Source: Rouxiella badensis
GTDB taxonomy: Bacteria; Pseudomonadota; Gammaproteobacteria; Enterobacterales; Enterobacteriaceae
NCBI RefSeq assembly: GCF_002093665.1
Contig: NZ_MRWE01000003.1
Span: 124,001 to 188,000 of the forward strand
Direction: 5' to 3'
DNA length: 64,000 bases
The notes under the pieces are model-generated. The model worked only from the letters and a program-made list of their open reading frames with translations, made no database searches and was not told the DNA's origin. Within the stretch, counting starts at the first letter, position 1; every line of letters starts with the position of its first letter. The position numbers and the translations under genes are program-made. Below, piece after piece: positions 13,491-15,364 of this stretch.

Positions 13491-13514
13491 CGCTATATAC
13501 TGGGAAATACAACG
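13491..13514. promoter_or_regulatory. Candidate ModE box (molybdate-responsive operator)
   Basis: CGCTATATA at 13491-13499, six bases, then AATACAACG at 13506-13514. This follows the 9-6-9 layout of E. coli ModE sites (CGTTATATT-N6-TACATAACG at modA). The left arm matches 7 of 9 and the right arm 6 of 9 positions of the modA site. It ends 18 bp before the GTG start of the binding-protein gene, so it may overlap the promoter and repress when molybdate is plentiful. Match found by eye. Confidence 0.6.
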
Positions 13515-13532
13515 TATAACGAGGTTTTCCCT

Positions 13533-14639
13533 GTGCACACTTTTCTAAAATTTTCGCTATCCAGGTCGAATACTTTCAACATCCTGATGCTCGGCGCGGT
13601 GCTGAGCATGTCATCCTTTGGCGCGATCGCCTCACGACAAATCACCGACCAGCTTGGCCGTCAGATAACGATTCCCGATCAGGTCGACAGAGTTGTCGTA
13701 CTTCAGCATCAGACGCTTAATCTTCTCGTGCAGCTCGACGCCAGCAGCAAGATTGTTGGCGTGCTGGCAAACTGGAAACAACAGTTGGGCGACAGCTATG
13801 TGCGCCTCGCACCGCAGCTGCTAACAACACCTGCGCTGGGCGATTTGACGCACGTCGATGTGGAGAGTCTGGTTGCGCTGCATCCGCAGGTCGTCTTCGT
13901 CACAAACTATGCGCCAAAGGAGATGATTGACCAGATTAGCAACGCAGGCATCGCGGTAGTGGCTATTTCGCTGCGCGACGACAGGCCTGGAGAAGCGGGC
14001 AAAATGAATCCGCAGATTAACGACGAGGAGCAGGCCTACAACGACGGGCTAAAAACCGGTATCAGGCTGATTGGTGAGGTGGTGAATCGCCAGAAGCAGG
14101 CTGACGCGCTTATCGATTACACCTTTGCCCAGCGAACTCTGGTGAGCAGCCGCCTGAAGGACGTTGCACCCGACCAACGCGTCCGCGTTTATATGGCAAA
14201 CCCTGACCTCACGACCTATGGCTCCGGCAAATACACTGGCATGATGATGAATCACGCGGGCGCACTTAACGTGGCTGAATCCACGGTGAAAGGCTTTAAA
14301 CAGGTGAGTATGGAGCAGGTCATCGCCTGGAACCCGCAGGTGATTTTTGTACAGGACCGCTATCCGCAGGTGGTGGGTGATATCGAACGCGACCCTAACT
14401 GGCAGGTCATTGACGCCGTAAAGCATCACCGCGTTTATCTGATGCCGGAATATGCCAAGGCCTGGGGTTATCCAATGCCCGAAGCGCTGGCCATCGGTGA
14501 GCTGTGGATGGCGAAAAAACTCTATCCGCAAAAATTCAGCGATATCGATATGCAGAAACAGGCCAATGCCTACTATCAGCGTTTCTATCGCACTGACTAT
14601 GTCGCGCCTAAACCCGCGCCAGCCGAGCCTAAAGCCTGA
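13533..14639 (+). CDS. Class III periplasmic metal/oxyanion-binding protein (FecB/BtuF/MolA fold)
   Basis: Secreted binding protein of 368 residues starting at GTG 13533 (AACGAGG upstream). A hydrophobic signal lies at about residues 14-34 (FNILMLGAVLSMSSFGAIAS). The mature part has two lobes joined by a long helix, as in the Peripla_BP_2 family: RQITDQLGRQITIPDQVDRVVVLQHQ, VDVESLVALHPQVVFVTNY, and EQVIAWNPQVIFVQDRYP. Relatives bind siderophores, haem, vitamin B12 or, in Haemophilus MolA, molybdate and tungstate. The stop overlaps the ATG of a ModA-like gene (TGATG), and a ModE-like box lies upstream. Molybdate or tungstate is therefore my preferred substrate. No permease or ATPase gene adjoins it. 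Confidence 0.82.
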   Translation: MHTFLKFSLSRSNTFNILMLGAVLSMSSFGAIASRQITDQLGRQITIPDQVDRVVVLQHQTLNLLVQLDASSKIVGVLANWKQQLGDSYVRLAPQLLTTPALGDLTHVDVESLVALHPQVVFVTNYAPKEMIDQISNAGIAVVAISLRDDRPGEAGKMNPQINDEEQAYNDGLKTGIRLIGEVVNRQKQADALIDYTFAQRTLVSSRLKDVAPDQRVRVYMANPDLTTYGSGKYTGMMMNHAGALNVAESTVKGFKQVSMEQVIAWNPQVIFVQDRYPQVVGDIERDPNWQVIDAVKHHRVYLMPEYAKAWGYPMPEALAIGELWMAKKLYPQKFSDIDMQKQANAYYQRFYRTDYVAPKPAPAEPKA

Positions 14640-15364
14640 TGACCCGGCAGCTCAACGTTCTGGCTGCGGGCAGCCTGAGAGCCGTTTGGCCGCCTTTAAT
14701 GGCACATTTTACCCGACAGAGCGGGATAGGGGTCTCGACGCAGTTTGGCCCCGCCGGGCTGCTGCGCCAGCGCATTGAAGCGGGAGAACAGCCTGATCTG
14801 TTCGCCTCAGCCAACGTATCACATCCGCAGCGCCTGCTGGCGCTCGGCCGTGCTCAGCGCGTTGAGACCTTTACCGGCAACAGGCTTTGTCTGACGGTGC
14901 ATGAAAATCGGGTAACCGAACACCCCTCATGGTTAGCGTTGCTGAATGACCCCGGGCTGCGGCTCGGCACCTCGACGCCGCTTGCCGACCCTTCGGGTGA
15001 CTACACCTGGCAGCTGTTTGAAAAGATAGAGAGGCGTCACCCCGGCATGGGCGAAAGGCTGCGTCAGTCGGCTTTGCCACTGGTCGGCGGCGCCGAGAGC
15101 CAGCCCGTACCAGCGGGCGAGCTGGCCGCGGCGTGGCTTATCCGCACCGGACAGTGCGAGCTTTTCATCGGCTATGTGAGTTACGCGCGTCGGCTCGCAG
15201 AGTGTGACGGTCTGCGGGTGATTGAAATACCTGAGGATTATAATATTCGAGCGGATTATGCCTTTGCGCAATGCCACGCACGAGCAGAACCGCTGTCAGA
15301 TTTTTTGCTCTCGACAGCGGCGCAGGGGTACTTAACGCGGGAAGGATTTACCGAGAGGGATTAG
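14639..15364 (+). CDS. ModA-like molybdate/oxyanion-binding protein without signal peptide
   Basis: Protein of 241 residues with the ModA-type type II binding-protein fold. LNVLAAGSLRAVWPPLMAHFTRQSG resembles the ModA opening (LxVFAAASLxxAL...F), FGPAGLLRQRIEAGEQPDLFASAN is the second oxyanion-site region, and NRLCLTVHENRV opens the middle. The N-terminus MTRQLNV starts directly in the first strand, so no signal peptide exists and the product would remain cytosolic. Its start overlaps the upstream stop by one base, implying coupled translation. A cytosolic ModA domain could sense or buffer oxyanion rather than feed a transporter. It converges with the RIO kinase gene, overlapping stop codons. 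Confidence 0.78.
   Translation: MTRQLNVLAAGSLRAVWPPLMAHFTRQSGIGVSTQFGPAGLLRQRIEAGEQPDLFASANVSHPQRLLALGRAQRVETFTGNRLCLTVHENRVTEHPSWLALLNDPGLRLGTSTPLADPSGDYTWQLFEKIERRHPGMGERLRQSALPLVGGAESQPVPAGELAAAWLIRTGQCELFIGYVSYARRLAECDGLRVIEIPEDYNIRADYAFAQCHARAEPLSDFLLSTAAQGYLTREGFTERD

Follow-up and report, generated by a model that had tools for sequence, protein, structure and literature searches.

Importers of the ModBC type work with class II binding proteins. The closest described relative of the locus presented here is a different importer, MolABC of Haemophilus influenzae, whose molB gene is repressed about 10-fold by molybdate, an effect that the accessible text of one study ascribes to an 'unknown factor' (Rice et al., PMC4031551). 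Adjoining molABC in that organism is HI1469, annotated modA in the accessible parts of two reports (PMC3928620, PMC3877243). HI1469 to HI1473 were deleted together in the published mutant, and as the gene was removed with the whole cluster, the study (PMC4031551, accessible text) gives HI1469 no phenotype of its own. Titles and abstract openings, which are no proof of absence, did not include any work that treats the leaderless ModA next to molABC as a distinct protein.

We have analyzed a 64-kb stretch of the genome of Rouxiella badensis, referred to below as the window, in which a class III binding protein gene (molA, gene 1) is coupled to a gene for a leaderless ModA-like protein (gene B). 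The features of this molA-B locus are as follows.

13491..13514, + strand: ModE box, a 9-6-9 palindrome, 27.2 bits with the modA-promoter matrix, kept upstream of molA orthologues
13533..14639 (stop included), + strand: molA, secreted class III (FecB/BtuF-type) substrate-binding protein, GTG start, PF01497, phmmer match to HI_1472
14637..14641, + strand: TGATG stop/start overlap with one shared base, read from the sequence and consistent with translational coupling
14639..15364 (stop included), + strand: gene B, leaderless ModA-fold protein of the NCBIfam PRK03537 group, PF13531, NF002918 E value 1.2e-85

The two proteins of the molA-B locus

Gene 1 encodes 368 amino acids with a hydrophobic N-terminal leader, as judged by eye, and a match to the Pfam family Peripla_BP_2 (E value 3.4e-28). 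Its best solved relative in phmmer searches is HI_1472/MolA of H. influenzae (3psa, 3psh), with an E value of 8.2e-140 over residues 35-356; this match scores 469 bits and the next PDB chain 107 bits. By the criterion of sequence, gene 1 is thus orthologous to Haemophilus MolA, and molybdate is the likely ligand of its product. Both the secreted FecB/MolA-type fold and the molybdate ligand had been proposed in the first-pass annotation, which had also looked to homologues consistently placed beside haem or siderophore permeases as a sign to the contrary. The outcome was different: the permease that was compared, which adjoins molA in a relative (L155), is orthologous to HI1471/MolB (2nq2; E value 4.4e-109). 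The window therefore shares with MolABC of H. influenzae an orthologous binding protein, but it differs in having a ModE box and in lacking MolB and MolC. Loss of a permease-docking residue in MolA was considered and dropped: the N-lobe glutamate presumed, by analogy with BtuF, to be the docking position is kept in 28 of 31 molA-B proteins versus 21 of 37 proteins encoded with molBC, and the residue is too variable to tell.

The product of gene B has 241 amino acids and matches the Pfam family SBP_bac_11 (E value 3.3e-40). Its best curated match, NF002918, belongs to the PRK03537 group (NF002915-NF002920), although the score of 286.7 bits is just below the cut-off of 288 and the family name implies a role in an ABC transporter, which is doubtful for a protein without a leader. 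The score against TIGR01256 (ModA) is 45.2 bits, below the cut-off of 62.5. An AlphaFold2 model built on 41 aligned sequences (mean pLDDT 95.7) has ModA-type proteins as its closest solved folds: 7tav (Z 26.3, rmsd 2.0, 217 aligned residues), 4rxl (Z 24.7) and E. coli ModA, 1wod (Z 23.2, rmsd 2.6, 218 aligned). This fold covers the 241 amino acids, and a DNA-binding or other extra domain is absent. The third codon before the ATG of B is an in-frame TAA, and therefore no signal peptide can precede it. The claims that the second gene overlaps the first by one base and encodes a ModA fold without a signal peptide thus hold. Fewer than 20 in-frame upstream codons are present in 51 of the best 80 of 576 named B homologues; the other 29 of these 80 have longer open stretches, which cross the end of molA in molA-B loci, and a few of them read hydrophobic. 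Some molA-B loci (L254, L256, L264) have a frame before B that overruns the end of molA and does read hydrophobic, and sequence alone does not exclude a leader on B there.

B resembles E. coli ModA (1amf/1wod) in its fold and in keeping the equivalents of Ser12 and Tyr170, but it has no leader, is only about 25% identical and carries Ala in place of Ser39; these three are ligand residues of ModA. The Ala is invariant in the leaderless sets, while three aligned secreted relatives have Ser, and the affinity or the ligand of B may therefore differ. Four residues invariant in B (D117, P118, G120, D121) align with the ligand-loop region of ModA. We infer that B is an intracellular binder of a molybdate-type oxyanion, located in the cytosol. 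More distant homologues from another family (f6) carry a leader-like extension in all eight cases examined. One of these, L339:5665-6612, lies behind a 21.9-bit ModE box with no permease beside it and is possibly of the ancestral type of the leaderless protein.

ModE boxes at molA and at other genes

The palindrome noticed earlier 18 bp before the start, and interpreted as ModE-like, is present as described: it reads CGCTATATA-CTGGGA-AATACAACG and ends 18 nt ahead of the GTG at 13533. For scoring, a symmetric ModE matrix was derived from 30 modA loci of family genomes, one of which was dropped for having fewer than 14 of 18 consensus matches; being built on 27 distinct modA-promoter sites, it avoids circularity. 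It replaced an earlier matrix taken from short upstream stretches, with which boxes were found at few modA genes. The site at 13491-13514 scores 27.2 bits, inside the 22.1-30.0 bits spanned by the training modA sites, and still reaches 27.1 bits when the modA box of the same genome is left out of the training. The runner-up within the window has only 8.1 bits with this matrix, and the control maxima were 13.9 bits in 60 Markov-1 sequences of 64 kb and 4.4 bits in the reversed window. When the entire genome was scanned with a less strict pattern, the box was among seven distinct places that match with zero mismatch; the matches with one mismatch (41 and 40, versus 30 and 31 for the backwards pattern) are mostly chance. 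A simple scan found no sigma-70 promoter at the box on the + strand.

ModE is encoded in the same genome (L069:6611-7471, HTH_1 and two TOBE stretches) adjoining modABC (assigned by sequence and context), and boxes are present at modABC and at a moaA-like gene. The putative ModE regulon of this genome shares with that of E. coli the type of box found at modA; compared with that regulon, it gains molA-B and a TonB receptor that is accompanied by another class III binding protein.

In 27 of 30 family loci a box of at least 14 bits lies ahead of molA. Exceptions to the pattern are L018, with a variant box of 5-nt spacer, L038, with 9.2 bits, and L026, with none. Among the best 80 of 576 named B loci, 78 hold molA, and in 74 of these a box scoring 12 bits or more lies close to the start of molA; the four that have none at this threshold, three from Lonsdalea and L271, are molA-B loci. 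The strength of the box and these two counts support the earlier proposal of ModE control, and ModE would bind at 13491-13514 and repress transcription in a molybdate-dependent manner. Judging from the boxes in these genomes, ModE would be the obvious candidate for the 'unknown factor' of Haemophilus. B itself can carry a box: of the 35 named loci with the convergent order, 8 have one just upstream of it (15.9-26.2 bits; best 80 of 576), and the B of L152 has its own box of 18.3 bits. The wide loci (653,557 bases), mostly chosen for holding such genes, contain 44 sites of at least 12 bits, and by reading of the maps all of these except L334:690 and L371:7312 precede a molA or its remnant, a B-type gene, a TonB receptor gene or a WtpA-like gene.

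Elsewhere in the genome of the window, on contig C13, the receptor gene and the second class III binding protein gene (L067:5955-9118) lie behind a ModE box of 24.1 bits. The receptor scores 259.4 bits against TIGR01783 (TonB-siderophore type; cut-off 223.5). All 15 matches to it (E value of 1e-80 or better, in 14 of 119 family genomes) have an upstream box, of 17.0-27.1 bits. MolA is present in 11 of the 14 genomes; since G064, G103 and G109 have the receptor and no MolA, the receptor does not need MolA. The two are nevertheless neighbours in some loci: receptor and molA-B diverge from a region with two boxes in L260, and in L301 receptor and binding protein are directly ahead of molABC. Receptor, binding protein and a permease/ATPase of the kind found on contig C72 (see below) are contiguous behind a 23.7-bit box in G009, and coordinates give the same order of receptor, binding protein and permease in G027, G042, G050 and G074. 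Receptor-type uptake is thus tied to molybdenum control, and the C72-type permease is linked to a ModE box in these genomes, though not in that of the window. No ModE-controlled TonB receptor appeared among titles and abstract openings, a source that cannot prove absence. A further box in the genome of the window (20.9 bits, from 5911 in L070:4147-5934, contig C48) adjoins genes for a WtpA-like binding protein and an ABC permease, and a similar-looking gene in L371 also has one (20.3 bits).

Distribution of the pair and absence of molBC

We counted MolA in the family at E values below 1e-100. In 119 family genomes MolA was found in 30, B in 31 and both in 29. The two genomes with B only, G028 and G094, have molA fragments near B; broken copies of molA occur in these two and in G117. 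MolA without B is seen in G019 and G275, both with molABC, the latter behind a 30.0-bit box. The arrangement of the pair takes three main forms. Six family genomes have molA-molB-molC-B on one strand (G014, G022, G027, G043, G057, G078), nine have B convergent to molC (G001, G009, G023, G034, G041, G050, G065, G074, G084) and thirteen have molA-B without molBC (G000, which is that of the window, G003, G011, G024, G031, G035, G070, G071, G075, G082, G086, G087, G115). In G042 molA and B are about 2.4 kb apart, without molBC and without a box. The rearranged molA/B loci of G042 (L161) and G094 (L169) adjoin what look by eye like hydrogenase-maturation genes, and genes for an ATPase and an ABC-3 (Zn/Mn-type) permease lie downstream of molA-B, with the same orientation, in G011 (L171:6700-8282).

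A scan of named genomes confirmed 576 relatives of B, of which the best 80 were analysed. These 80 comprise 45 loci with molA and B without molBC, 33 with B convergent to molCBA, and two with B and molCB at a contig end. The carriers among these best 80 of 576 include Rouxiella, Rahnella, Ewingella, Erwinia, Pantoea, Cedecea, Mangrovibacter, Lonsdalea, Klebsiella, Citrobacter, Buttiauxella and Hafnia, and Rouxiella silvae has the B nearest to that of the window (75%). A set of 345 genomes from across the order added five genomes of one further family (f27) that carry both genes, all with molA-molB-molC-B; four have boxes of 26.7-30.0 bits and one (L333) has none. The first-pass annotation had considered the combination to be absent from the literature. 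This is not borne out: the accessible parts of published reports place HI1469 beside molABC (PMC3928620, PMC3877243), and a similar gene accompanies molABC across Enterobacterales. HI1469 resembles B in its place next to molC and in its 'modA' kind of annotation, the likeness being one of position and annotation.

No permease or ATPase adjoins molA-B in the window, as had been stated before; the pair is flanked by genes for a LysE-type protein and a RIO kinase, and molB and molC are not part of the locus. None of the eight FecCD matches in the genome lies on the contig of the window. A partner of the MolBC type elsewhere, which the earlier annotation had suggested seeking, was looked for and not found: no MolB orthologue turned up in this 72-contig draft, and the best identity to any of four MolB queries among the eight matches is 41%, for a permease that is haem-type by context. 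The neighbours of the eight suggest permeases of the haem, siderophore, FhuB, vitamin B12 and zinc types, apart from one FecCD permease that is paired with an ATPase on contig C72 (L083:5653-7727) and has no adjacent binding protein.

This C72 permease is matched in 50 of the 119 family genomes. It is found in all 13 family genomes with molA-B and in 8 of 16 with molBC (p 0.003). Among named genomes, where the search covered 26 of the 45 loci without molBC and 24 of the other 35, making 50 of 80, and overlaps the family set, so that the counts are not additive, it is found in 26 of 26 with molA-B, one match (G454) having an internal stop, versus 8 of 24 with molBC (p 1.5e-7). Among genomes counted as Enterobacteriaceae by their names, the figures are 11 of 11 versus 7 of 22. 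Within Cedecea, C. davisae and C. neteri have molA-B and a C72-type permease, and C. sulfonylureivorans has molABC and no such permease. The association is confounded by ancestry because the molA-B form is a single clade. The orphan state of the permease was also considered as evidence that it serves MolA, and was dropped. The permease lacks an adjacent binding protein in 6 of 13 molA-B genomes and, within the named set, in 12 of the 24 molA-B loci and 0 of the 6 convergent ones that were examined; but it is equally orphan in 7 of 10 fetched genomes without molA, and the orphan state therefore says nothing about MolA. Other genomes have a C72-type permease with its own binding protein beside it and without a ModE box, and in L182 it is beside a binding protein and a Pfam-confirmed TonB receptor. 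Beside molA-B itself it was not found in the 80 named loci (best 80 of 576; flanks up to 6 kb). The C72 permease/ATPase is the best candidate for a partner of MolA acting in trans.

A quick maximum likelihood tree was made of 69 MolA proteins (30 family loci, five from f27, 33 of the 80 named loci, and G275). A branch with SH-aLRT 99 separates off all 32 rows that have no molBC, equivalent to one change; the tree has no bootstrap and its root was not inferred. Long branches lead to L358, L023, L248 and L033. By NCBI names the clade without molBC spans Yersiniaceae, Erwiniaceae, Enterobacteriaceae, Pectobacteriaceae and Budviciaceae, and Cedecea holds both forms. Plasmid records with a B homologue number 86, of which 52 are from Pantoea, and the locus on plasmid pSOD02 (L250) is molA-B. 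Transfer or differential retention of the locus is likely. Both genes are under purifying selection: for B, dN is 0.02-0.37 and dS 0.19-2.1 (11 pairs), and for molA, dN is 0.10-0.17 and dS 1.3-2.6 (5 pairs), several of the dS values being near saturation.

Possible roles of the pair

As a whole, the observations of the first-pass annotation are confirmed and its interpretation is partly supported. The pair represents an old and widely distributed version of a known molybdate importer, one that no longer has a membrane pump of its own; as read from the sequences, the locus would be a new, permease-less variant with a near-constant partner. What the sequences show is the box, a MolA orthologous to HI_1472, a ModA fold without a leader in B, the near-constant linkage of the two genes, the absence of molBC and the purifying selection. 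From these we put forward, with about as much confidence as doubt, a ModE-repressed, permease-less branch of MolABC in which MolA captures the substrate, a permease acts in trans and B binds the oxyanion inside the cell. When cytosolic molybdate is low, ModE would leave its box and molA-B would be transcribed. Exported MolA would capture molybdate (or tungstate) in the periplasm and, having no MolBC of its own, would have to deliver it to a permease of the FecCD type from another locus, the C72 pair being the best candidate. B, translated together with MolA, would stay in the cytosol and bind the incoming oxyanion as acceptor or buffer. In this scheme repression by ModE, the ligand and cytosolic role of B and the identity of the permease are inferred. 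An unlikely extension of the scheme is a second ModE-controlled molybdenum route into the cytosol, in which the TonB receptor and its class III protein are joined by MolA, the two binding proteins use the same siderophore-type FecCD permease in trans, and B serves as a dedicated cytosolic acceptor of the oxyanion.

Other roles can be imagined for either protein. B might be a sensor or brake that, once loaded with molybdate, acts on the importer or a regulator and stops uptake, with MolA using any compatible permease; the ModE box that B may carry when transcribed apart from molABC, and the invariant residues at the ligand-loop region, are in keeping with this, but a protein whose 241 amino acids are spanned by a ModA-type fold, with no DNA-binding or extra domain, makes it an unlikely role. 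It is slightly more doubtful that MolA feeds ModBC, or no transporter, as a periplasmic molybdate store with B as its cytosolic counterpart. The genome does contain modABC and no MolB orthologue, its best match (41%) being haem-type by context, but all 26 molA-B genomes tested keep one FecCD permease, and ModBC is a different type of importer that works with class II binding proteins. Export of leaderless B, for example by a type VI system, so that it collects extracellular molybdate and supplies a receptor of the outer membrane, has a reported precedent in ModA/IcmP of P. aeruginosa among those in the accessible part of a review (PMC8602904). A TonB receptor does lie behind a ModE box in the same genome, and the leader-like extension of the f6 homologues means that secretion is old in the family; but with the receptor in 14 of 119 genomes and B in 31, we consider this role quite improbable.

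That the pair is a decaying remnant of molABC-B, with molA and B no longer useful, might be argued from the loss of molBC, the broken molA copies of G028, G094 and G117 and the separated, boxless genes of G042. Both genes occur in a single clade, with 13 family genomes and 45 of the named loci (best 80 of 576), both are under purifying selection and the box is kept in most; this speaks so clearly against decay that we give it very little credence. Least credible is a siderophore-binding protein for iron or haem that is next to a ModE-like box by chance, a reading to which the FecB-type fold family would lend itself, but which conflicts with the orthology to MolA and the conservation of the box.

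Returning to the permease-less MolABC branch, its conserved ModE box would name the likely regulator of molA in Enterobacterales, and the ModA-like protein without a leader, its near-constant partner, can now be tested as a component of the MolABC system. The ModE boxes before the TonB receptor make it a concrete candidate for an outer-membrane molybdenum receptor; if the second route is true, the receptor and its binding protein would import molybdate or a chelate of molybdenum. That MolA without MolBC forms a stable clade raises the question of whether a binding protein can get by with a permease borrowed from another system.
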